NCBI RefSeq assembly: GCF_030503435.1 | Contig: NZ_JAUKPO010000008.1 | Location: 62,001-126,000 of the forward strand | Source of the DNA: Rhodocytophaga aerolata | Lineage (GTDB): Bacteria; Bacteroidota; Bacteroidia; Cytophagales; 172606-1 | Reading direction: 5' to 3' | Length of the DNA stretch: 64,000 bases | Made by a program: the position numbers and the translations under genes | Shown: positions 2,807 through 64,000 of the stretch, in pieces | How the letters are laid out: every line of letters starts with the position of its first letter | How positions within the stretch are numbered: the stretch's first letter is position 1 | Notes under the pieces: model-generated | Databases searched by the model: none | Seen by the model: only the letters and a program-made list of their open reading frames with translations | What the model was told of the DNA's origin: nothing

Positions 2807-3469
2807 TCAGTTATGTTCATACTGCAACAATCCTTTGCTATGCCATGACCTGCTATTTTTTCTAAAGAACAAATCCAGTGCGCGGAAGGTAACAAGCGTT
2901 AAAACTACGCCAATGATAGAACCAACGTATATATCGCCAAAGAAATGTTGCGACAGATATACCCTGGAATAACTGGCAATCAGGGCCAGGCAAAACCAAA
3001 GGTAACCCAGGCTTTTGTTTCTGGAGAAAATACTCAGCAAGCAAAAAAGTGAAAAAGCAGAAGTAGCATGGCCGGAAGGGAAACTATTATGCGAATGCAG
3101 GGTCACGCCTTCTACCATGTGTAGCACATAAGAGCTGTTTTCAAAAAAAGCTTTTGGCCGCAACTCATCCGTAAATATTACTTTTTTCAGCACCTGCGCT
3201 ACTAGTGAACTGGTGATGTAGCAACTCAACGCAATAGCGGCTTTCCGGTAGCTTACCAGCGCCAGCAGCACAACAACAAGTATATAAAACAAGCCATCGC
3301 CCACATGGGTCATGTACTTAAAAAAGTAATCGGCTGCCGAATGATAGTTTCCATTAATAAAAGAGAATAATTCAACTTTTGTATAAAAAAGCTGTAATAT
3401 CCCACCCAAGATAAAAAATACCTGATACGGTAGAAAGAAAGGAAAATTTACTTTTACTATTTTATACAT
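2807..3469 (-). CDS. PAP2-family membrane lipid phosphatase
   Basis: The protein has all three PAP2 signature pieces in order: a K...RP element (KKVIFTDELRP), the PSGH box, and SR...H...D (SRVYLSQHFFGD), within five or six membrane helices. Family members dephosphorylate phosphatidic acid or undecaprenyl pyrophosphate at the periplasmic face. I placed the start at the ATG at 3469, giving 220 residues. The longer frame begins with TTG eight codons upstream and adds nothing conserved. Next to a GT2/GT39 pair it could recycle the lipid carrier, but the substrate is inference. Confidence 0.85.
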   Translation of the reverse strand: MYKIVKVNFPFFLPYQVFFILGGILQLFYTKVELFSFINGNYHSAADYFFKYMTHVGDGLFYILVVVLLALVSYRKAAIALSCYITSSLVAQVLKKVIFTDELRPKAFFENSSYVLHMVEGVTLHSHNSFPSGHATSAFSLFCLLSIFSRNKSLGYLWFCLALIASYSRVYLSQHFFGDIYVGSIIGVVLTLVTFRALDLFFRKNSRSWHSKGLLQYEHN

Positions 3470-3800
3470 AACTACAGTGGAAAGCCGATGCAAGTTATTT
3501 ATTTATCCTGCAATCTGGAAGACTGAGCCGGTATTCCAGATTTTTAGCCAATCCTGAAAGCACCTTCTTGAAGAAAACAAAATGACAACCAATGAATTAA
3601 CTAATAGAGGGTGCAAAGCTCCTCATAATGAAAGCGTAAGCATAGATGTTTTTCATAGAAAAAGATAATTTTTTATCGAAAAAATCAAGGAAGTTATATG
3701 TTTATTGGGGAAAAATTGATATAATTGACATTATTTTTTAAAAATCAAAAAAGCTATCGGTACTCTACGTTAACCTATCCTTATTCTTAAACTTTTTATT
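3470..3800. other. Intergenic, divergent promoter space between PAP2 and MFS genes
   Basis: This stretch is AT-rich and has no convincing reading frame. It contains one small inverted repeat (3512-3520 with 3534-3542, 13-base loop) followed by a run of T on the plus strand, which resembles a weak terminator without a plus-strand gene in front of it. I found no clear TAnnTTTG box ahead of the MFS start at 3801. Confidence 0.5.
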
Positions 3801-5078
3801 ATGGCTACAATCATCAGTACACAAACTTCTACTGCTGTTAATGCAGACCGCCTTTTTTATGGGAGTTGCTTAGCACTCATTACTACAGCCTTTTCCTTTA
3901 GTATCAGGGCGGGTATTTTACCTCAATTAGGCACTTCATTTGGGCTTTCAGCCGAGCAATTGGGTTTTATAAACTCTATGTGGTTTGTTGGCTTCCCTAT
4001 TGCTATGATTATAGGTGGTCTCGTTTATTATTCTGTTGGTCCTAAAATTATTATGTCCGTTGCCTTTGTTTCCCATATGCTAGGCATCCTGCTAACAATC
4101 TATGCAGGTGGATACTCAACCCTGCTCATCTCTACACTTTTTATTGGTATTGGTAATGGTTGTACAGAAGCAGCCTGTAATCCAATGATTGCAGATACCT
4201 ACTCAGGTGAAAAAATGAATAAAATGCTGAACCGCTTTCATATGTGGTTCCCTGGGGGTATTGTTATTGGTAGTCTTATTTCTAAGTTCATGACTGATGC
4301 AGGATTACCCTGGCAAGCCCAGATCTGGGTTATTGTGGTTCCTACCGTAATTTATGCATTCTTGTTTTTCGGACAAACATTCCCTAAACCAAAAGTAGAA
4401 GGCGCTACTTCTTTATCTCAAAACTTCCGGGCAATATTCACTCCACTGTTTTTGTTTATACTTGCTTGCATGGCGTTCACAGCGATCTCGGAATTTGGTC
4501 CGCAGCAATGGGTGGGGTTAATTATGAGTAAAAGTGGAGCCAGCCCTATGCTGATTCTGGCACTTGTTACTGGCTTGATGGCCGTTGGCCGGTTCTTTGG
4601 TGGCCCTATTATTCATAGATTCGACCAGACAGGTGTATTACTTGGAGGTTCAGTTTTTGCACTGATCGGAATTTATCTATTCAGTACCCAAACAGGCGCT
4701 ATGGCCTATGTTGCTGCTATTTTCTTTGCCATTGGGGTATGTTATTTCTGGCCAACTATGATTGGTTTTGTGGCTGAACGCATTCCCCGCAGCGGTGCGT
4801 TGGGTATGTCTATTGTAGGAGGTATGGGTATGTTCTCAACGGCTATTTTCCAGCCTATTATTGGTGGATGGATCGACAGCGAACGTGCAGCTATCTCTAC
4901 ACAGGGATTGTCAGGAGATGCCTTGGAATTGGCCGCTGGTCAAGCCACTTTGCTTAAGATGACAACTTTCCCTATCATCCTGATCGTTGCTTTTACTGTG
5001 CTCTTCTTCTGGGTACGCAGCCGGAAAGGTTCTCATGTAGATGGAACAGAAATTCCTGCGCCAGGAGCTTCATTATAA
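3801..5078 (+). CDS. Major facilitator superfamily transporter
   Basis: This 425-residue protein has about twelve hydrophobic segments, a short polar N-terminus, and a central break near residue 200 typical of the 6+6 MFS fold. A cluster of polar residues in the first half (GNGCTEAACNPMIAD, near 118-132) resembles the helix-4/5 region of sugar-transporting MFS proteins. The substrate is unknown. The neighbouring sugar ABC importer hints at a carbohydrate or sugar derivative, but a hairpin lies between them, so co-transcription is doubtful. The start is ATG at 3801. Confidence 0.85.
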   Translation: MATIISTQTSTAVNADRLFYGSCLALITTAFSFSIRAGILPQLGTSFGLSAEQLGFINSMWFVGFPIAMIIGGLVYYSVGPKIIMSVAFVSHMLGILLTIYAGGYSTLLISTLFIGIGNGCTEAACNPMIADTYSGEKMNKMLNRFHMWFPGGIVIGSLISKFMTDAGLPWQAQIWVIVVPTVIYAFLFFGQTFPKPKVEGATSLSQNFRAIFTPLFLFILACMAFTAISEFGPQQWVGLIMSKSGASPMLILALVTGLMAVGRFFGGPIIHRFDQTGVLLGGSVFALIGIYLFSTQTGAMAYVAAIFFAIGVCYFWPTMIGFVAERIPRSGALGMSIVGGMGMFSTAIFQPIIGGWIDSERAAISTQGLSGDALELAAGQATLLKMTTFPIILIVAFTVLFFWVRSRKGSHVDGTEIPAPGASL

Positions 5079-7876: not shown

Positions 7877-8923
7877 ATGACTCCAAAAGTAGAAATACCG
7901 CCTGCTACCGTAATGCCGCCCTTGCCAAACAAATCTAAAGGTGAATCTTCTAGTGTAAAAAAGGTTCTACTCCAGTTTGCGCCGTTTTTTGGGTTGCTTT
8001 CTGTATTTATATTATTTGTCATTTTATGTCCTCCGGCCTTTTATAGCTTTTATAATTTTAAAACTATCATTACCCAAACCGTTATTGTCGGAATAGCTGC
8101 TATGGGTATGACCATGATTATTATATCCGGAGGAATAGATTTAAGTGTAGGCTCCCAAATAGCCCTGGGTACGGTTGTTATTGCTACTATACTAAATATG
8201 GGTGGTCCGGGTGTTGAAGCAAGTACTGGCATTACTATACTGGCTGCTTTAGGTGCCATTGCAGCATGTGCCGTTTGCGGATGGCTTATTGGCCTCACTA
8301 CTTCCAGGCTGAATATTGTGCCTTTTATTGTAACATTGGGTGTAATGCAGATAGCCCGTGGAGTAGCCAAATGGATAGGCAAGGAACAAACCGTAAGCAC
8401 CCCAGTTAATAATTTGCAAAAACTGATGCTACTGGACCCCGAGCCAGAATGGTTGATATTTGCCCCCGGTGTATGGATTACCATTCTGCTGGTTGCTCTT
8501 ACGGCGGTAGTTCTCAAATATACAGTTTTTGGCCGCTATATTTTTGCTATTGGTTCGAATGAAAAAACCGCTAGGCTGTGCGGAATTAATGTTTCGCTGA
8601 CCCGGATGGCAATTTATACATTCAGTGCCCTGTTCACCGGTGTGGCTTCGGTCATGCAATACAGCAACCTTACCGTAGGCGACCCTACAGCTGCAGCCGG
8701 TATGGAACTAGATATTATTGCAGCCGTAGTGATTGGCGGGGGCTCGTTAAGCGGTGGTGAAGGAAGTGCCATGGGCTCTATCATTGGTGCCTTAATTATG
8801 GCCGTGTTACGTAACGGATGTAATATGCTTGGGGTACCTAATTTTGTACAGGAAGTAATTATTGGTGTAATTATCATAGGGGCTGTAGCCATAGACCGCC
8901 TGAAACATCATATTAAAGCCTAA
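7877..8923 (+). CDS. Sugar ABC importer permease (RbsC type)
   Basis: This 348-residue membrane protein has a polar, proline-rich N-terminal tail of about 30 residues and then eight to ten membrane helices. It carries the family motifs GGIDLSVGS near residue 95 and AAVVIGGGSLSGGEGS near 290, which form the coupling region that contacts the ATPase. It would form the homodimeric channel of the importer. It follows the ATPase gene closely and is the last transport gene of the presumed operon. Confidence 0.92.
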   Translation: MTPKVEIPPATVMPPLPNKSKGESSSVKKVLLQFAPFFGLLSVFILFVILCPPAFYSFYNFKTIITQTVIVGIAAMGMTMIIISGGIDLSVGSQIALGTVVIATILNMGGPGVEASTGITILAALGAIAACAVCGWLIGLTTSRLNIVPFIVTLGVMQIARGVAKWIGKEQTVSTPVNNLQKLMLLDPEPEWLIFAPGVWITILLVALTAVVLKYTVFGRYIFAIGSNEKTARLCGINVSLTRMAIYTFSALFTGVASVMQYSNLTVGDPTAAAGMELDIIAAVVIGGGSLSGGEGSAMGSIIGALIMAVLRNGCNMLGVPNFVQEVIIGVIIIGAVAIDRLKHHIKA

Positions 8924-8953
8924 GGAGTTGTTAAGATTATTATTGAATTACCA

Positions 8954-9565
8954 GTGCCAGTTTTAAAGTTATTACACCAATACTGCCCGCAAGCAGCTGT
9001 AAATTATTGCTATGCGTTATGGCAAAAGGATAGTTTTGTTCTTATAATCAAAAAGGACAGAAGAAGTAAATTAGGCGACTACCGCTTCATTCCGGGCAGC
9101 TCTACCCCGCATCAGATTAGTATTAATCATACACTCAACCCTTATTCTTTTCTGATTACCTATATTCATGAAGTTGCTCATCTGCATACCTTTACTAAAT
9201 ATAAAAGAAAGGTACTTCCTCATGGAAAAGAATGGAAACGGAATTTTCATCAGCTGATGCTGCCCTTGCTGAATGAACAAATTTTTCCGTCTGATGTGCT
9301 CTTGCCTTTGCAGCTATACATGCAAAATCCGAAAGCTTCCTCTTGTTCGGATATGCGCCTTTTTAAAGCGTTGCAGACTTATAGCACTTCGGCAAAACCT
9401 TTATTGATGGAATTATCTACTGGCGAAAACTTTGTGCTGCATGGAAGAATATTTCAGAAGGGACTTACCAGGCGTACCAGAGTACTTTGCACGGAAAGAA
9501 GCACCGGCAAGCAATATACGATCTCAGCCCAGGCACCAGTAGAGAGAATGATTAATGAAGGATAG
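8954..9565 (+). CDS. SprT-like zinc metalloprotease-fold protein
   Basis: The 203-residue protein carries HEVAH at 72-76 (the HExxH zinc-binding helix) in a context typical of SprT-like domains, with a third His shortly after (HLHTF). SprT family proteins are Zn-dependent; the eukaryotic SPRTN relatives cut DNA-protein crosslinks, while most bacterial members are uncharacterised. The start is GTG at 8954 and no in-frame ATG is better placed. It follows the sugar permease by 30 bases and may ride on that transcript, without an obvious functional link. Its 3' end forms one arm of a palindrome shared with another site in the window. Confidence 0.78.
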   Translation: MPVLKLLHQYCPQAAVNYCYALWQKDSFVLIIKKDRRSKLGDYRFIPGSSTPHQISINHTLNPYSFLITYIHEVAHLHTFTKYKRKVLPHGKEWKRNFHQLMLPLLNEQIFPSDVLLPLQLYMQNPKASSCSDMRLFKALQTYSTSAKPLLMELSTGENFVLHGRIFQKGLTRRTRVLCTERSTGKQYTISAQAPVERMINEG

Positions 9566-9589
9566 CCTGTAATCATTCATTAATCATTC
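9546..9589. repeat. 13-bp palindrome, copy 1 of a dispersed element
   Basis: GAATGATTAATGA (9546-9558) pairs with TCATTAATCATTC (9577-9589). The hairpin covers the end of the SprT-like gene, with the stop codon in the loop, and lies before the convergent orphan gene. The same arm sequence recurs at 41584-41629, so it is a repeated element rather than a one-off terminator. Confidence 0.65.
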
Positions 9590-9600
9590 GTACAGAATCA

Positions 9601-10167
9601 TTATTCCAGCCTTCTGACTACTAAATCTTTTACGGTGTCGTAAAAGCGGCCGGGAGTAAGGGTACGCCAGTTGTCTATTTCCAGAGTTCCACCAAAATTA
9701 ATGTAGTAGTCGAGCCGGAATTTACGCCATTCCGCTTCTACAAAATCACGGAAATTGATGGCTACAATCCACCCGTCTTCTACCTCTTCAAACCATTCTT
9801 CATAATAGCAATCATCTGAGCCGTGGAAATTGAGGATATTTTCGCCAATCAAAATAAATTGATTGATTCCTTCGCCCAGCAGATAATCTATGACATTCCG
9901 TTTGAAGTGCATAATATCATTATGCAGCGTGTCATTCCACTCTCCGAACATCTCTATTATGGCAAAGCGGCGGTTGTAGTCGGTAAAAAGAATTTTAACG
10001 TATAAGGTTTCAGAGCCAATTTCGTCCCATAACGGGTGAATGTAATACCCATAGATGTCATGGGTATATTCCTGCATATTGTATTCTCTGCCATAGAAGG
10101 GAGACCGGTCATCGTCTGAAGCTACGTAATAGTTCTCCCAGTTGTAAAAAGGTTCTATTTCGTGCAT
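9601..10167 (-). CDS. Conserved-looking hypothetical protein, acidic and aromatic-rich
   Basis: This 188-residue soluble protein has no signal peptide and no membrane segment. It is very rich in Tyr, Trp, Asp and Glu, with clusters such as CYYEEWFEEVEDGW around residue 120. It reads as a genuine coding frame (ATG start, even composition, sits cleanly between neighbours), but I do not recognise a family. It stands alone, convergent with the SprT-like gene and co-directional with murQ, whose start codon lies further upstream. No function is proposed. Confidence 0.7.
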   Translation of the reverse strand: MHEIEPFYNWENYYVASDDDRSPFYGREYNMQEYTHDIYGYYIHPLWDEIGSETLYVKILFTDYNRRFAIIEMFGEWNDTLHNDIMHFKRNVIDYLLGEGINQFILIGENILNFHGSDDCYYEEWFEEVEDGWIVAINFRDFVEAEWRKFRLDYYINFGGTLEIDNWRTLTPGRFYDTVKDLVVRRLE

Positions 10168-10263
10168 GTAAGTGCAAATGTATACCCTACTTAACGTGCA
10201 TCCCTTAGCTGGCGTTCATTTTCTACCTAAAATTTGCCAGGGAATTTATTTTCCTATTGTTAA

Positions 10264-11073
10264 CTATTTAGTTCCTCTGACACTGTCTACCGCTTTGCGT
10301 ACACTGCCGTGCTGCTGCAATAGTTGAGCGGCTTTCTGTTCGTCAATCTGTAGTTCATCCATTACCATTTTTACACCGCGGCCTACTAGCTTCTCATTGC
10401 TCAGTTGCATATCTACCATCTTATTTCCGCGTACTTTCCCCAGCTGAATCATAACAGAAGTAGAAATCATGTTGAGTACTAGTTTCTGCGCCGTGCCAGA
10501 CTTCATACGGGTGCTGCCTGTTACAAACTCTGGTCCAACTACTACTTCTATAGGGTATTCTGCTGCTTCTGCCAGTTTGCTTCCAGTGTTACAGGTAATG
10601 CAACCGGTAAGAATTCCTTTTTCCCGGCTGGTTTTAACTCCACCAATAACATACGGCGTGCGGCCAGAAGCTGCAATACCAATAACCGCATCCTTCTCAC
10701 TGATGTTAAAGGCTCCCATATCTTTCCATGCCTGATTAGGATCGTCCTCTGCATGCTCTACAGATTTACGGATGGCGCCATCTCCACCGGCAATAATCCC
10801 GATAACCATATCAAAAGGAACTCCATAGGTGGGCGGACACTCTGAGGCATCTACCACTCCTAAGCGTCCGCTGGTGCCGGCACCAATGTAAAATAGCCTC
10901 CCTCCTTTTTTCATCCGGTCTACAATCTGCACAATCAGTTTCTCTATCTGAGGAATGGCTTTTTCCACCGCAAAAGGAACCGTTTTGTCTTCATTATTGA
11001 TGTTTGTCAGCAGTTCATGTACCGACATTTTTTCCAGGTTATTGAAATGAGAAGCAGATTCGGTAGTAAGCAT
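10264..11073 (-). CDS. murQ: N-acetylmuramic acid 6-phosphate etherase
   Basis: This 269-residue SIS-fold enzyme splits the D-lactyl ether of MurNAc-6-phosphate, giving GlcNAc-6-phosphate and lactate in peptidoglycan recycling. It has GAGTSGRLGVVDASECPPT from residue 64, with Glu78 in the position of the family's catalytic acid, and a second conserved GGDGAIRKSVEHAEDD block holding another family Glu. The length is a little shorter than the roughly 300 usual. A BadF-type amino-sugar kinase lies upstream on the same strand, as expected if the kinase supplies MurNAc-6-phosphate. Confidence 0.95.
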   Translation of the reverse strand: MLTTESASHFNNLEKMSVHELLTNINNEDKTVPFAVEKAIPQIEKLIVQIVDRMKKGGRLFYIGAGTSGRLGVVDASECPPTYGVPFDMVIGIIAGGDGAIRKSVEHAEDDPNQAWKDMGAFNISEKDAVIGIAASGRTPYVIGGVKTSREKGILTGCITCNTGSKLAEAAEYPIEVVVGPEFVTGSTRMKSGTAQKLVLNMISTSVMIQLGKVRGNKMVDMQLSNEKLVGRGVKMVMDELQIDEQKAAQLLQQHGSVRKAVDSVRGTK

Positions 11074-11253
11074 AGCTACAAGTTGAAAAGATTAAAGTTT
11101 ATGAATTTGGAAATCTGGAAATTAGCAAAGTGATATTTGTAAATAAATTGAGAAAAAGAGAAATCAATTTGTGTGTAATAGAGCACAGAAAGAATAGAAT
11201 TACAAAAGTTTTTCCTGTACATTTTCAAACCGCCACATTTTTTCATTGGCCCA

Positions 11254-12120
11254 TCAGTTTTGCCATCCATTTTTCTGCTGATGGTAAAGGGTAAGTCCGG
11301 CAATAGGGCTTTCCATAATATGGCCAATGGTTAATCCTGTATCCTGGGCTGCCTTCCGAAGTACAGTATTGTAATAAAATGCTACAGAGCCAGTAAAATG
11401 TACTTTATACGACCGGGCATTCTCATATTTGAGTACATACCGATTGAGAAAAGTAATAAATCCATCATACACTAACTGGTAAGCATAGGGATGGCTGATA
11501 TTATCAAACAGAAACTTGGAATACGAGGCAAAATAACTATTGGGAAAAGGCTTTTTGTAGGCATTTTCCAGTACAGTACTTAGTACAGGCTTATACCGCT
11601 TCTCAAACTTTTGCCGCAGGTCAGCCGGCATATCCTCATGAAAATAGTGCTGAATGAGTGTTTTTCCCATGTATCCTCCACTGCCTTCATCTCCCAGCCA
11701 GAAGCCTAACGAAGGCCGGCCAGTTACAATATCTTTGCCATCGTACAGGCAGGAATTTACACCCGTACCCAATATACAGCCAATGCCTGGCTCATGCCCG
11801 CAAAGGGCTCTGGCAGCCGCAAGCAAATCATGGTTTGCATCTACCTGGGCATTGGGAAATGCTTTGTTTATAGCAGTACGAACTATAGTCCGGTTAGTAT
11901 CCGACGAGCAGCCAGCCCCATAATAGTATATTTCAGAAATAGCTGTAACGGAGGTAGAACTTAGCTGCGGAAGAAGTGTTTTTTCCAGCTCTTCATAAAT
12001 CATGTCGGAATCCTGAAAATACGGATTAAAACCGACAGTTTTGGCTTGTGCTACGGAACCATCCGGGCCCAGCAGCCGCCAGTCTGTTTTAGAAGAACCG
12101 CTGTCTGCGATTAATATCAT
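11254..12120 (-). CDS. BadF/BadG-type amino-sugar kinase (GlcNAc or MurNAc kinase)
   Basis: The protein begins MILIADSGSSKTDW, the phosphate-1 loop of the BadF/BadG/BcrA/BcrD ATPase family, followed by GCILGTGVNSCLYDG and GFWLGDEGSGGYMG, the substrate and adenosine motifs seen in eukaryotic-type N-acetylglucosamine kinases. I chose ATG at 12120 (288 residues). The longer frame adds 20 residues ahead of the conserved start, from within an AT-rich intergenic repeat. Kinases of this type next to murQ phosphorylate MurNAc (MurK) in some Bacteroidota and clostridia; that is the favoured role here, by context. Confidence 0.87.
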   Translation of the reverse strand: MILIADSGSSKTDWRLLGPDGSVAQAKTVGFNPYFQDSDMIYEELEKTLLPQLSSTSVTAISEIYYYGAGCSSDTNRTIVRTAINKAFPNAQVDANHDLLAAARALCGHEPGIGCILGTGVNSCLYDGKDIVTGRPSLGFWLGDEGSGGYMGKTLIQHYFHEDMPADLRQKFEKRYKPVLSTVLENAYKKPFPNSYFASYSKFLFDNISHPYAYQLVYDGFITFLNRYVLKYENARSYKVHFTGSVAFYYNTVLRKAAQDTGLTIGHIMESPIAGLTLYHQQKNGWQN

Positions 12121-58757: not shown

Positions 58758-59468
58758 TTAACGGTAAATACTGGTTGCCATCTTTCTGTTGAGCAGGAAA
58801 ATAGCCACCATATAGAGGGCAAATCCACTGCTTAAATAAAGCAGAAATTGAGGCGTATTTTCTGCCATTTCCAGACTGCGGTACGACCAGTAGGTGGGTA
58901 TAACAGCCGCCAGATGCATCCAGGGAGAAGGAACAAAATAAATCAAAGCAGGCAGGATAAGCAACAGATTGATAATTTTCATTTGTGCCAGGCCCTCAAT
59001 CCGGTTCTGCGAAAAAGCCCCCAGCAACAAAGCAATTAAGGGAGCGGCCAGGCTAAACTGAAAAGCAAGAAGCCATTCTTTGACCAGTGTTAAAGACACA
59101 ATTTGTCCGTAATGAAGCAGAAAAAAATTAACCAGCGAAGAAATACCCAGCCCAAAGAGCATTCTGGATAATACCAGGTTTAGCGGTTTAACCGGTAATA
59201 TGCGGATCACCTGCCAGATGTTTTCCTCTTTTTCTTCCAGAAACAAAAACCCATAAATAAACCCGAACATAATGGCAGATTGCAGGCAGGCCCACATCAG
59301 AATTACCTGACTGTAGGGCTGTATAACAGGAAAATTGTTCAAGATAGCAGGTAAACCCCATCGGATTAAGGTAAAAGACATAAACGGGAAAAAGAGCAAT
59401 ACCTTAAACACAGGATCGCGGAAGGTGGAACGAAGGTCGCTAATGCTCAGGCTAATCAGGTAATTCAT
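58758..59468 (-). CDS. ABC-2-type exporter permease subunit
   Basis: The 236-residue protein has six membrane helices and a soluble loop with EKEENIWQVIRILPVKPLNLVLSR, similar to permeases of two-permease ABC exporters (such as the fluoroquinolone-type systems). There is no ATPase domain, so the nucleotide-binding subunit is elsewhere. The partial permease at 63544-64000 shows the same I-x-x-LP...LS pattern in the matching loop, so the two are likely the two halves of one exporter, now split by the three-gene cassette. Confidence 0.82.
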   Translation of the reverse strand: MNYLISLSISDLRSTFRDPVFKVLLFFPFMSFTLIRWGLPAILNNFPVIQPYSQVILMWACLQSAIMFGFIYGFLFLEEKEENIWQVIRILPVKPLNLVLSRMLFGLGISSLVNFFLLHYGQIVSLTLVKEWLLAFQFSLAAPLIALLLGAFSQNRIEGLAQMKIINLLLILPALIYFVPSPWMHLAAVIPTYWSYRSLEMAENTPQFLLYLSSGFALYMVAIFLLNRKMATSIYR

Positions 59469-59723: not shown

Positions 59724-60527
59724 ATGAACGAACCCATATTTTCTATACAAACAGCCGATAGCCCTCTGATAGCGGCGGCAATACACGATGGAAGCCGTAT
59801 CCGCCCAGAACTTCACCCATACCTATCCCTGGACACAGCAGGGCGGTTGCGGGAAGAAGATCCGCATACAGCTCAATGGACCAGTATAGCTCCTACCCGC
59901 ATCATTGGCTTGCATTCGCGTTTCGAAGTAGATTTGAACCGCGCCAGGCAAAAAGCCATTTACCTTACGCCAGAAGATGCCTGGGGCTTGACTGTGTGGA
60001 AAGAAGCCTTACCCGATGAAGTCATAAACCGGTCTCTGGCTAGCTACGATGCTTTTTATAGAGAAATAAAAAAGGTACTGACAGCTATTGTAGAAAAGCA
60101 TGGCAGCTTTGTGGTGTACGACCTGCACAGTTATAATCACCGCCGAGAAGGGGCCAACGGGCAGGAGGCTGATCCGAAGGAAAATCCGGAAGTAAACATA
60201 GGCACTGCCAACATCAACCGGCAACGCTGGGCACCAGTAGTAGATCAGTTTATAGATGATCTACGCAGCTTTCCTTTCCAGGGCAGGCATCTGGATGTAC
60301 GGGAGAATGTTAAGTTTAAAGGAGGGTATTTTTCGCAGTGGATACACGAACAATTTCCTGAAGAGAGCTGTGTAATGGCTATTGAATTCAAAAAAATATT
60401 TATGAACGAATGGACCGGAGAAGTATATCCGGGCTGGCTGGAGTCTATACAGGATGCCCTAACATCTACCGTTCCGGGTGTATTGAAAGCACGTGAAAGC
60501 GTACAAGTAAACCAGTTGCAACGATGA
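59724..60527 (+). CDS. N-formylglutamate amidohydrolase-family protein
   Basis: The 267-residue protein (ATG at 59724; a TTG two codons upstream is possible) matches the N-formylglutamate amidohydrolase family: AAIHDGSRIRPELHPYL with metal-binding His/Asp, VDLNRARQKAI near 73, VVYDLHSYNHRREG near 130 and a C-terminal CVMAIEFKKIFMNEWTG. Classical members finish histidine breakdown, but no hut genes are near. It overlaps the next gene by four bases (ATGA), so its activity is more likely tied to that gene's product. Confidence 0.88.
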   Translation: MNEPIFSIQTADSPLIAAAIHDGSRIRPELHPYLSLDTAGRLREEDPHTAQWTSIAPTRIIGLHSRFEVDLNRARQKAIYLTPEDAWGLTVWKEALPDEVINRSLASYDAFYREIKKVLTAIVEKHGSFVVYDLHSYNHRREGANGQEADPKENPEVNIGTANINRQRWAPVVDQFIDDLRSFPFQGRHLDVRENVKFKGGYFSQWIHEQFPEESCVMAIEFKKIFMNEWTGEVYPGWLESIQDALTSTVPGVLKARESVQVNQLQR

Positions 60528-62422
60528 TAGCAGAAATTACCGATGAGTTTATTCATAAAGTTTCCAGGAGGTTAAAACAAGGGAAAGGGATCAGGTGGAA
60601 AATACCCCCTCATGGCTGTATTCACATAGACCGCCCCTTGCCTTTTCTCTGTATCTACCGGTATTCCGACCATTCGCCTGATAAATGGACCGGGCAGCTT
60701 ATCCGCTCGGAAGCATCGTACCTTATTGCTTCTGCTTCGCAAGCTGCCAGGCTTTCCGAGCTGGTAAAAAGTATTACGGAAACACTTTCTGATCAGTTTG
60801 GTGCTTGCCTGCTTATTGAGGTATGGGCAGCATCTCCGCAAGAAATACTTACCTCTCCTACGCCTACTTTCCGGATTTTTGGTCCTCCTGTAGAAAAATC
60901 GGTAGTGGTAGAGAAGTTTGCTGAAAATCTCCGGCAACTAAACTTACTCCATCTACCCACCTCCGTGGAACTAAGGGAAGAGAATCGGCGACAGCCCGTT
61001 GAGATGCCTGCTTTGCTCAGGCATGAATCTCTAAAAACAACCGAATGTTTGTCGCTAGGTCTGGAGATACAGCCGTTTTACCTCAATACCAGTCTACATT
61101 CGGTTTATCCCTTATCTCTGCGCCTGCTAAACCGCGAATTGTCCAAAGCCCTTAAGAGTACTTTTTTTGAATTTGTACGCCTGGAAACAACCCATACTAT
61201 CTCTGCTTTTCAGGAACTAGGAAATACACATATAGACCGGGCTGTATGGGAAGCAGACCAACAGCTGGCGCAGATTAGCCAGTCTTTTCAGTTTTTGCTG
61301 CTGGTGACACCCATCAATGCCAAAGAAGCCTGGGAAGAATTTAAAGAAACAAAATTCAAAAAGCCGCCACATTTTCATTACCGGCTGTTGCCCATCGATC
61401 CGGATGTAGTAAAAAGAGAGCTATATAACATTCCTATTGAAAAAATTACCGATCCTACTCTGGCTTATATACTCCGGGACAAGCGGCACGAACTCGACAA
61501 AATGATTACTATGCTAGCTGATAGGAACACCCCTAACTTCCGCCTGAGCAGCCTGCAATTGTTTGGAGGGGTCTCTACAAGTTTAAGGCAAACCGCTGAA
61601 CAGCTGCTGCAGTTGCTGCCTATGAAAGAGGATAGCGAAACCCAACCAGATACCGTATCAGCTCAGGAGTTTGCCCGCAGGGCTCTGGAAGAGATTGACT
61701 ATTTCCGTGCCCAGTATGCTGACGTGGCAGCCACCGTAAAAATCCGCGACGATGTGGTAGGACTGATGGTGTCGGAGGGAAATCTACACATACAGGCGCA
61801 GTCCCGCATTCCCCGGAAACGGGTCGAGGCACTCATTCAGCACGAAGTAGGCACGCATATTCTTACCTATTATAATGGCAAAGCGCAGCCGCTGCAACAG
61901 TTATATTGCGGGGTGCCCGGATACGAAGAACTGCAGGAAGGCCTGGCTGTGCTAAGTGAATACTTGGTAGGAGGCCTTACCCATGCACGCCTCCGGCTAC
62001 TGGCCGCCAGGGTGATAGCCGTGTCAGATATGATCGACGGAGCCTCTTTTCAGCAAGTGTTCAGTCAATTAACAGAGCAATATGGTTTTGCTCCACTCTC
62101 AGCCTTTAATGTAGCGATGCGGGTATTCCGGGGAGGAGGCCTGACCAAAGACGCTGTATACCTGCGTGGGCTGGTAAGCTTGCTGGTTTATTTACGAGAA
62201 GGAAATGAGCTGGAACCTTTGCTACTAGGTAAAATCCGGCAAGACTATATTCCCATCGTACAGGAACTGATCTACCGCCGGGTACTTCGTACCATTCCTA
62301 TTAAACCCAGGTACCTGTCTGATCCACTGGCACTTGCCAAGCTCAGACAACTTAAAAAAGAGGGTACCGTATTTACATTACTTAACCCACATCCCCATGA
62401 AAATCGCATTTTTAGTGAATGA
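60524..62422 (+). CDS. QEGLA-motif (DUF1704) metalloprotein, MATCAP-like
   Basis: The 632-residue protein belongs to the DUF1704 family that also includes the human microtubule tyrosine carboxypeptidases (MATCAP). The metal motif HEVGTH is at 440-445 (HExxxH), and YEELQEGLAVLSEY at 467-480 holds the QEGLA sequence (471-475), whose Glu is the likely third metal ligand. The first 330 residues are a less conserved N-terminal part. NCBI names the family a flavohemoglobin-expression modulator from early genetics; carboxypeptidase action is an inference from the eukaryotic relatives. It is translationally coupled on both sides. Confidence 0.92.
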   Translation: MIAEITDEFIHKVSRRLKQGKGIRWKIPPHGCIHIDRPLPFLCIYRYSDHSPDKWTGQLIRSEASYLIASASQAARLSELVKSITETLSDQFGACLLIEVWAASPQEILTSPTPTFRIFGPPVEKSVVVEKFAENLRQLNLLHLPTSVELREENRRQPVEMPALLRHESLKTTECLSLGLEIQPFYLNTSLHSVYPLSLRLLNRELSKALKSTFFEFVRLETTHTISAFQELGNTHIDRAVWEADQQLAQISQSFQFLLLVTPINAKEAWEEFKETKFKKPPHFHYRLLPIDPDVVKRELYNIPIEKITDPTLAYILRDKRHELDKMITMLADRNTPNFRLSSLQLFGGVSTSLRQTAEQLLQLLPMKEDSETQPDTVSAQEFARRALEEIDYFRAQYADVAATVKIRDDVVGLMVSEGNLHIQAQSRIPRKRVEALIQHEVGTHILTYYNGKAQPLQQLYCGVPGYEELQEGLAVLSEYLVGGLTHARLRLLAARVIAVSDMIDGASFQQVFSQLTEQYGFAPLSAFNVAMRVFRGGGLTKDAVYLRGLVSLLVYLREGNELEPLLLGKIRQDYIPIVQELIYRRVLRTIPIKPRYLSDPLALAKLRQLKKEGTVFTLLNPHPHENRIFSE

Positions 62423-63443
62423 CATACAAACCGAAGAACCCTCGTATACCACAACTTTCCTGGCGCATAAAATGCATACCCTGGGACATGAAGTATACCA
62501 GATGGGAGTAGGTGAACTGGCCTACTACCCGGAAGGCCATATGGGCGCAACTGCCCACCGGGTGCCTGCCGCCAAATATAAAACAGCAGAAAACTACCTG
62601 GATGCCCTGCAAAGTGAAAAAGCCATTATAGAGAAAATAACCGCGCCCGATCTGGATATAATTATGCTCCGCAACGACCCGGCTTCAGAAGGAGAAGGAC
62701 GCGACTGGGCCAGAAACGCAGGTATTGTATTCGGACAGCTGGCTTTACGGAATGGTGTAATTGTGCTGAATGACCCTAACAGCCTGGCCGATGCCATTAA
62801 TAAAATGTATTTTCAGCATTTCCCAGAAAGTGTTCGCCCCTTAACCCTGATCACACGCGACAAGGAAGAAATCCGCCGGTTTTTTGCAGACCTGAAAGGA
62901 AACATGATTTTGAAACCCTTACAGGGCTCTGGTGGGGCAAATGTATTTATGGTCCGGAAAGACGATGCCACCAACCTAAACCAGATGATAGAAGCCATTT
63001 CCCGTGACGGCTACATTATTGCCCAGGAATACTTGCCAAAAGCTGCAGAAGGAGATATCAGGCTTTTTGTAGTAAATGGGCAGGCACTTAAACATAAAAA
63101 TAAATATGCTGCCCTGAAACGGGTAAGCAAAAAAGGAGACGTACGGAATAATATTCACGCCGGAGGATCTGTAGAAAAGGCTGAAATAACCGACGAAATG
63201 CTGGAGTTAGTAGAACTGGTACGGCCAAAACTCATAAATGACGGTATGTTTATGGTGGGCCTGGATATTGTCGGAAATAAGCTAATGGAAATCAATGTAT
63301 TTACTCCTGGTGGGCTACATACGTGCAGCAAACTGGAAGGTGTAGATTTTTCAGAACCAGTGATTGAAGCATTGGAAAGAAAAGTGCACCATAAAAAAGC
63401 CTATGAGACGGAGGTAAGCAATAAGACAATTGCTGTTATTTAA
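62397..63443 (+). CDS. Glutathione-synthase-like ATP-grasp ligase
   Basis: The 348-residue protein (ATG at 62397, 26 bases inside the preceding gene; the frame opens further upstream) has an N-terminal domain like GshB (KIAFLVNDIQTEEPSYTTTFLAHKMHTLGHEVY), DPASEGEG, and the ATP-grasp core GNMILKPLQGSGGANVFMV, QEYLPKAAEGDIRLFVV, LDIVGNKLMEINVFTPGG. ATP-grasp enzymes join a carboxylate to an amine. True GSH synthesis is possible, but no gamma-glutamylcysteine ligase is near. As third member of the cassette it may add a residue to a peptide or protein that the upstream enzymes process. Confidence 0.93.
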   Translation: MKIAFLVNDIQTEEPSYTTTFLAHKMHTLGHEVYQMGVGELAYYPEGHMGATAHRVPAAKYKTAENYLDALQSEKAIIEKITAPDLDIIMLRNDPASEGEGRDWARNAGIVFGQLALRNGVIVLNDPNSLADAINKMYFQHFPESVRPLTLITRDKEEIRRFFADLKGNMILKPLQGSGGANVFMVRKDDATNLNQMIEAISRDGYIIAQEYLPKAAEGDIRLFVVNGQALKHKNKYAALKRVSKKGDVRNNIHAGGSVEKAEITDEMLELVELVRPKLINDGMFMVGLDIVGNKLMEINVFTPGGLHTCSKLEGVDFSEPVIEALERKVHHKKAYETEVSNKTIAVI

Positions 63444-63543: not shown

Positions 63544-64000
63544 TTACAAAAGTTTTTTCACCGTTACTTTACTGGCAATAATCCAGCTGATAGCAGTCCA
63601 CAGCAATAAATGCCCGTACATAAGAAATAAGTGCCCGAAGCTTTTTTCTTCAAAAGCCGCCTGCAAAACGCCAATTCCCCCGGCCGAAGGAATAATAAAA
63701 TAATGCACCAGATCTCCAATTCCGAACAGGCTTAGAAAAGGAAGACCAGTCAGCACAAAAAAGGGGACGGAATACACCAATAGTTGATTGAAGGAACGGG
63801 TGAATGCCCCTACAGCGAAGCCAGCAAGCGAAAACATAAATGCAGATAAAAAAGCAGCTGCCAGCAAATGGAATAGATTGAAATCAGTTCCTTTGGTAGC
63901 AAAAGCCATTATAAACGAAATACCAGTTGCCAGCAAAGAAAGCAGCACTGTCTTTGACAGCAGATAGGTTTGGAATGGCAAGGGTAACACAGAAATAGCC
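63544..64000 (-). CDS. ABC-2-type exporter permease subunit, cut by window edge
   Basis: The frame is open to the window edge; what is visible is the C-terminal 152 codons (the GTG at 63990 is internal, not a start). It has five membrane helices and a loop reading AISVLPLPFQTYLLSK, matching the IRILPVKPLNLVLSR loop of the permease at 58758-59468, so it is most likely that protein's partner subunit. The ATPase gene is expected beyond the edge. Confidence 0.82.
   Translation of the reverse strand, partial: AISVLPLPFQTYLLSKTVLLSLLATGISFIMAFATKGTDFNLFHLLAAAFLSAFMFSLAGFAVGAFTRSFNQLLVYSVPFFVLTGLPFLSLFGIGDLVHYFIIPSAGGIGVLQAAFEEKSFGHLFLMYGHLLLWTAISWIIASKVTVKKLL

Follow-up and report, generated by a model that had tools for sequence, protein, structure and literature searches.

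Within a 64,000-nucleotide stretch of the genome of Rhodocytophaga aerolata (Bacteroidota; assembly GCF_030503435.1, contig NZ_JAUKPO010000008.1, positions 62,001 to 126,000), which we call the window, three consecutive genes at positions 59724 to 63443 form one conserved module. Read in order on the + strand, they encode an amidohydrolase of the N-formylglutamate amidohydrolase type (FGase), a protein of the MATCAP/DUF1704 family and an ATP-grasp ligase resembling the glutathione synthase GshB, with overlaps of 4 and 26 bp between consecutive genes. That they belong together follows from their linkage in many bacteria, from gene fusion and from replacement of one member by another enzyme. Because the chemistries of the three families fit each other (peptide ligase, C-terminal peptidase and N-acyl-acidic-amino-acid hydrolase), we suggest that all three enzymes serve a make-and-unmake cycle on a small soluble acidic peptide, a reading which we hold tentatively and with slightly less than even confidence. 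The annotated names of the genes (formylglutamate amidohydrolase, "flavohemoglobin expression-modulating" protein and glutathione synthase) refer to pathways without relation to each other and so conceal a single module shared by many phyla. No description of the three-gene module was found in the searched open-access literature; a survey of amidoligases by Iyer et al. (2009, Mol Biosyst) may already include such a neighbourhood.

The linkage of the three families is far above chance. In a sample of 198 Bacteroidota genomes, the window genome included, MATCAP is present in 12. Twelve genomes likewise have a match to the ligase subfamily PRK12458 at E 1e-60 or better, 11 of them MATCAP genomes. 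We call the ligase strong in ten genomes that exceed the curated cut-off and in G002, which scores 396.5 against 408; G194, with a 214.8-bit PRK12458 match and no MATCAP, is counted as lacking a strong ligase. So defined, a strong ligase without MATCAP is found in none of the 198 genomes, and the association of the two has a Fisher p of 3.5e-17. At the MATCAP loci themselves, the ligase lies within ~2 kb in 11 of 12 cases, and in 10 of 12 FGase adjoins MATCAP or is fused to it. The two deviating loci are L016, with a solitary short MATCAP, and L026, with an AstE/AspA-type gene after the ligase. The window genome, which spans 9.07 Mb in 202 contigs and has a completeness of 100, contains one MATCAP gene by profile search and one PRK12458 ligase over the cut-off, plus two weaker relatives of the latter.

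A second set comes from a scan of named genomes that gave 574 matches to the window's type; it comprises the best 80 and is biased toward that type. The ligase is found within 2.6 kb in 78 of these 80 loci and FGase in 72; among the eight loci without FGase, two have an AstE-type gene and three end near the gene. Where the ligase follows MATCAP directly downstream (75 loci), the genes overlap or are separated by at most 30 bp in 65. The 80 loci, many of them from metagenome assemblies, include Planctomycetota, Acidobacteriota, Calditrichota and Poribacteria, and also Gemmatimonadota, Campylobacterota, Myxococcota and Pseudomonadota. Further, the triad is carried on named plasmids, in Aminobacter and on pSymB of Sinorhizobium meliloti.

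Less biased samples were taken from Gammaproteobacteria (the class of the L106 genome) and Planctomycetota (the phylum of the L044 genome), in which 39 of 274 and 38 of 199 genomes bear MATCAP, respectively. The kind of each MATCAP was set by the higher score of two home-made hidden Markov models. Long cassette-type MATCAPs (27 genes in 26 loci) are accompanied by the ligase in 26 cases and by FGase in 22. For the classic clade, mostly of ~430 residues (42 genes in 41 loci), the numbers are 1 of 42 and 0 of 42; the difference in ligase between long and classic genes has a Fisher p of 1.0e-16, and at the sole classic positive, L240, the adjoining ligase-like gene encodes a GSH-S_ATP protein. 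Neither ligase nor FGase (0 of 10 for both) is present in the fetched stretch of the short planctomycete MATCAPs, which have 402-432 residues (L257-L265 and L184). Left out of the counts were G227, G228 and G200, whose loci are already in the first set, and also G586, G676 and G693; G255 has broken frames and yields no gene, and G211 (L064 of the first set) was counted for linkage and excluded from the neighbour test. In a quick MATCAP tree, which has a very long branch (L218) and 32 of 100 forks open and is used only for its starred groups, a starred branch sets the classic genes apart on one side, and another starred group unites the fused with the flavobacterial short cassette forms. The first-pass annotation, made from the window alone, had named co-occurrence of the three families in other genomes as a check. 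They do so far beyond the window genome, fusions included, but only for the cassette type; co-occurrence of DUF1704 as a whole with the ligase was rejected.

FGase and MATCAP are fused into a single protein in L019 (Bacteroidota), L125 (Photobacterium sp. DA100) and L127 (Vibrio sp. HDW18), and again in L215-L217 and L249; of these four loci, three are gammaproteobacterial, with two almost the same, and one is from a planctomycete. In Photobacterium sp. DA100 the ligase gene comes first and the fused FGase-MATCAP gene follows. Replacement is seen where FGase is missing and an AstE/AspA-type gene is present, in L026 (by Pfam) and in L073 and L097 (by a one-sequence hidden Markov model). The AstE/AspA family hydrolyses N-acyl-Glu/Asp, and its NCBIfam names agree with this. 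The planctomycete cassettes L044, L049 and L074 contain three ATP-grasp ligases, with as many as two MATCAPs, and these extra copies suggest stepwise building of a longer peptide. Two plasmids show other arrangements. In Phyllobacterium zundukense (L128) the cassette looks decayed, with FGase and ligase fragments around a shortened MATCAP, and in Pseudoalteromonas (L126, 107-6257) a solitary short MATCAP adjoins the betIBA genes of glycine-betaine synthesis.

The FGase gene of the window (59724..60527, + strand, ATG at 59724) encodes 267 amino acids matching PF05013 with 79.8 bits (cut-off 28.9), and its structural model has a predicted local distance difference test score (pLDDT) of 95.5. His21 (59784..59786), a putative zinc ligand, is present in 68 of 68 aligned FGases, as are Asp133 and His135 of the putative zinc/catalytic motif Asp133-Leu-His135 (60120..60128); the zinc roles, here and in the degenerate domain described below, are assigned by family analogy. 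In a fold search the best match was the N-formylglutamate amidohydrolase 2q7s (E 3.5e-13), followed by carboxypeptidase A2 (5e-4) and, weakly, AstE (0.026). A profile search of PDB with the FGase alignment gave nothing at 0.01, though the fold search did match. Histidine degradation of the HutG kind was rejected, as the protein scores 25.1 on the equivalog TIGR02017 and misses its cut-off of 278.75 by far. The enzyme may cut acyl-Glu/Asp or instead, since its fold is next nearest to carboxypeptidases A, a C-terminal Glu or Asp. A role as cap remover, as the first-pass annotation proposed, is plausible.

The next gene (60524..62422, + strand, sharing 60524..60527 with FGase) encodes a long-form MATCAP of 632 amino acids (PF08014 310.7 bits, cut-off 27; TIGR02421 349.8, cut-off 338.65), whose AlphaFold model has a mean pLDDT of 89.2. 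In this predicted model the catalytic domain, residues 258-621 (61295..62386), aligns with human MATCAP 7z5g at Z 24.1 over 291 residues and 3.0 A, and human MATCAP is its closest solved relative. All 84 of 84 aligned MATCAPs, the window sequence among them, have H440, E441 and H445 of the HEVGTH zinc-binding/catalytic motif (61841..61858) and E472 of the QEGLA motif (61934..61948), which is expected to be the third zinc ligand. Likewise invariant (84 of 84) are R533, K542, D543 and Y546, which have counterparts in the human chain. The first-pass annotation had read the frames, the two overlaps, HEVGTH and a separate QEGLA glutamate from the sequence and had connected the protein with human MATCAP; coordinates, Pfam and the alignment bear out the former, and the structural match of the predicted model the latter.

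The first ~240 residues of this protein match no Pfam family. They align to the FGase family by hhalign with Prob 96.3 and an E of 1.8e-9 for the pair; in the control comparison, the MATCAP catalytic domain against the FGase family gave Prob 0.2. In the AlphaFold model, residues 28-221 (60605..61186) match the N-formylglutamate amidohydrolase 2q7s with Z 13.6 over 181 aligned residues at 3.4 A; Foldseek finds 2q7s at E 0.017 only. According to the profile alignment, the position of the first FGase zinc histidine is taken by Tyr45 (Tyr in 75, Phe in 8 and His in 1 of 84) and that of the second by Trp101 (Trp in 71 of 84), residues 96-105 being without His in any row. P40 and E99 are kept in 84 of 84 sequences and R46 in 83. 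The N-terminus of long MATCAPs is thus a degenerate FGase domain, probably free of zinc and apparently still constrained. We infer that it probably remains from an earlier fusion of FGase with MATCAP, and it might hold the acyl end of the substrate or dock the partner FGase. A phage-borne system was rejected: tblastn with the window MATCAP (E up to 1e-5) against 50,697 phage records gave one partial match only, in Pseudomonas phage OQ572403.1 (63659-64543, 28.6% identity, 44% of the query).

The last gene (62397..63443, + strand, ATG at 62397; overlap with MATCAP at 62397..62422) encodes a ligase of 348 amino acids belonging to the NF009110/PRK12458 subfamily (NF009110 460.2, cut-off 408; PF02955 171.8, cut-off 23). 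Residues D290, E298 and N300 (63264..63296), invariant in 30 sequences, are expected to bind metal by analogy with GshB. In phmmer searches the best solved relative is E. coli GshB (1gsa, E 8.8e-35) with RimK next, and all six solved relatives are of GshB and RimK types; by this sequence comparison, TTL/TTLL structures are absent, with no TTL chain at E 0.001. In these searches the parallel with TTL drawn in the first-pass annotation found no support beyond the shared ATP-grasp class.

In the cycle we favour, this ligase of the glutathione synthase branch would join an amino acid or peptide to a carboxylate on an acceptor that is small and acidic. C-terminal (or branch) residues would be taken off the product by the zinc enzyme MATCAP, and the FGase-type zinc enzyme would hydrolyse the remaining acyl-Glu/Asp amide, and the cell would thereby make and unmake a soluble acidic peptide. 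We infer that the three activities meet on one shared substrate with Glu/Asp specificity, and on it the ligase and the carboxypeptidase would be opposed, as was proposed from the window at the outset.

The same enzymes might work on protein tails. The ligase would then attach residues such as Glu at the C-terminus or on a side chain of a protein, and MATCAP and FGase would remove them, similarly to tubulin glutamylation or to the modification of ribosomal protein S6 by RimK. We consider this unlikely, though it deserves to be taken seriously. The closest solved relative of MATCAP comes from a family that acts on protein tails; one report describes animal MATCAPs/TMCPs as trimming tubulin C-termini and deglutamylating tubulin (PMC10499314). 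Genes for RimK and a PF05618 zinc protease adjoin (34 bp, L197:6765-8101) or lie near (~1.6 kb, L198:3058-4450) gammaproteobacterial classic MATCAPs, and RimK near classic, solitary MATCAPs is a second case of MATCAP near an ATP-grasp ligase. A single-sequence search with L017, the one short cassette-type sequence tried, reached human MATCAP at 3.4e-7, while the classic L016 and L191 gave no match at 0.1. This points, without proof, to a closer relation of the animal enzymes with the short/fused cassette group. The window MATCAP searched alone found no human MATCAP at 0.01 and, together with the two failing classic proteins, counts against action on tails. So does the ligase, which is GshB-like: its N-terminus is GSH-S_N, without the RimK pre-ATP-grasp domain PF18030 that the RimK of L197 shows in the same library. 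Relatives of the FGase/AstE kind have small N-acyl amino acids as substrates, and no recurrent candidate substrate protein is found beside the cassette among the listed neighbour clusters (open reading frames of at least 60 aa). A small soluble substrate is favoured over a protein tail because of the GshB-like and FGase/AstE-like enzymes; the ties to MATCAP and RimK keep the tail in consideration.

With less confidence still, we suspect that the acidic-peptide cycle may be used under osmotic or ionic change, above all at low salinity. An RNA-seq study of Photobacterium damselae at 1% versus 3% NaCl (PMC10308900) lists rises of 38.4-fold for RS17020, named "glutathione synthase GshB", of 27.5-fold for the QEGLA protein RS17025 and of 52-fold for RimK from another locus; QEGLA and "flavohemoglobin expression-modulating" are names used in this study. 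The first two genes have consecutive tag numbers, and in Photobacterium sp. DA100 the ligase and the fused FGase-MATCAP follow each other in that order. The published low-salinity induction of "GshB" in this marine bacterium may be induction of the cassette, not of glutathione synthesis; the rise of RimK together with both genes is a point for the protein tails.

Neighbouring genes were surveyed in a first set (A5; 89 of 120 proteins, shadow-looking frames removed by eye), in a second set from other loci (A6; all 85 listed proteins, shadow frames kept, so that the rate is somewhat understated relative to A5) and in a control set beside classic MATCAPs (A7; 125 of 153 proteins). The first set contains MscS six times, MgtE four times, and CorA and amino-acid permease three times each. 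The re-check of MscS concerned five proteins of this set, and the L054 protein tried is not MscS. The background of MscS in the same 31 genomes is 137 matches in ~144 Mb (hand-summed), or ~0.95 per Mb. The second set has one CorA and two Na/H exchangers. In five flavobacterial cassettes, genes of SDF-family (glutamate/dicarboxylate) symporters adjoin a second-type ligase (the L021 symporter scores 431 bits on PF00375 and misses the GltP cut-off). Such transporters would suit plain salvage, with FGase and MATCAP degrading imported acidic peptides and the ligase reversing this or storing surplus amino acid, all without a dedicated product. We regard salvage as improbable, for the tight three-way conservation, the fusions and the duplicated ligases suit a dedicated product better.

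Several observations weigh against the acidic-peptide cycle and its osmotic use. Neither a substrate nor an activity was found for any bacterial member. Five of the 27 long genes are without FGase within 2.6 kb, and in the 11 kb fetched for Vibrio L127 its fused gene is unaccompanied by a ligase. In the low-salinity study, the identity of the P. damselae genes rests on product names, neighbouring tags and a related species. MscS is absent from the families with at least two members in the second neighbour set (single-member families being partly listed), and CorA is found beside classic MATCAPs too (3 of 125); because of these two results, the osmotic link is a weak hint only. Finally, rhodanese genes lie inside or beside some flavobacterial cassettes (L020:9316-10137, L023:4770-5609 and L072:3926-4762). 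That of L020 is mercaptopyruvate-sulfurtransferase-like (205 versus a family cut-off of 250), that of L023 is its homologue, and the L072 gene has a rhodanese domain. Their presence would suit a thiol and speaks against glutamate as the only substrate.

If a thiol were the product, the ligase would make a glutathione-like tripeptide or another low-molecular-weight thiol, and the two hydrolases would recycle it. Apart from the rhodaneses, this draws on the GshB-like character of the ligase, on DCC1-type thiol-disulfide oxidoreductase genes within the fetched stretch of five loci, and on the second-type ligases of L021 and L019, which pass NF003573 (283.9 and 278.1 versus 272), though not TIGR01380. 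The window ligase misses both GshB equivalog cut-offs, with 212 versus 272 for NF003573 and 196.1 versus 299.05 for TIGR01380. In the window genome (G000) neither gshA family, PF04262 or PF04107, has a match, and positive controls matched. The same two families were sought in 42 genomes that bear the ligase: 15 match PF04107, in some cases barely, 3 others match PF04262, and 24 match neither; many of the 42 are metagenome assemblies, and completeness figures cover the 11 sampled Bacteroidota. In the near-complete sampled Bacteroidota with the ligase, 9 of 11 match neither family. We give the thiol pathway a small chance. An ordinary glutathione synthase was rejected for the window genome, with no gshA and both GshB cut-offs missed. 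The first-pass annotation had distrusted the usual names of the outer two genes and had taken the ligase for something other than an ordinary glutathione synthase; the failed HutG and GshB equivalogs and the lack of gshA support it in both.

In its layout, the cassette is flanked by two - strand genes of ABC-2-type permeases, at window positions 58758-59468 and 63544-64000 (Pfam matches below cut-off); in L266 coordinates the same flanks are 3259-3969 and 8045-11505. By eye, these permeases seem to belong to one - strand exporter operon, with an ATPase, a LytTR-type regulator and a histidine kinase further on. The + strand cassette looks as if it had been inserted as a unit into this operon.

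The module gives bacterial MATCAPs genetic partners and testable chemistry, and it exposes a pseudoenzyme domain. Sinorhizobium meliloti, a model symbiont, carries it on pSymB, where its deletion and assay are feasible. A word search of the MATCAP1 paper PMC13269789 found no mention of bacterial relatives. As a speculation, which we think much more likely wrong than right, the cassette could be an add/remove system for acidic peptide tags and at the same time the setting from which the tubulin-tail carboxypeptidases of animals descend. Eukaryotes would have acquired a MATCAP of the short/fused clade, and in bacteria MATCAP would oppose a dedicated ATP-grasp ligase, guided by FGase or pseudo-FGase, and tune the acidic peptide load on salinity change.

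Compared with known systems, the window MATCAP shares with animal MATCAP1/TMCP1 and MATCAP2/TMCP2, the tubulin detyrosinases/deglutamylases, the catalytic fold, HExxxH, the downstream Glu and the further R, K, D and Y. Unlike them, the bacterial long form has a pseudo-FGase domain, and its gene stands together with those of a ligase and an amidohydrolase. The ligase is like E. coli GshB in sequence and in the ATP-grasp D/E/N residues, but it fails the GshB equivalogs and its genome is without gshA. FGase shares the 2q7s fold of the HutG enzymes (2q7s/2odf), and an AstE-type (aspartoacylase-like) gene takes its place in three loci, but it stays far below the HutG equivalog. RimK with the PF05618 zinc protease, the ribosomal S6 glutamylation system, likewise sets an ATP-grasp ligase beside a metalloprotease and occurs at classic MATCAPs in two loci; its ligase is of another ATP-grasp subfamily and its protease of another family. 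The mammalian N-acetyl-aspartyl-glutamate cycle consists of an ATP-grasp ligase, a metallocarboxypeptidase and an aspartoacylase. By analogy only, it unites the same three kinds of activity as the cassette, with a carboxypeptidase from a different protein family.

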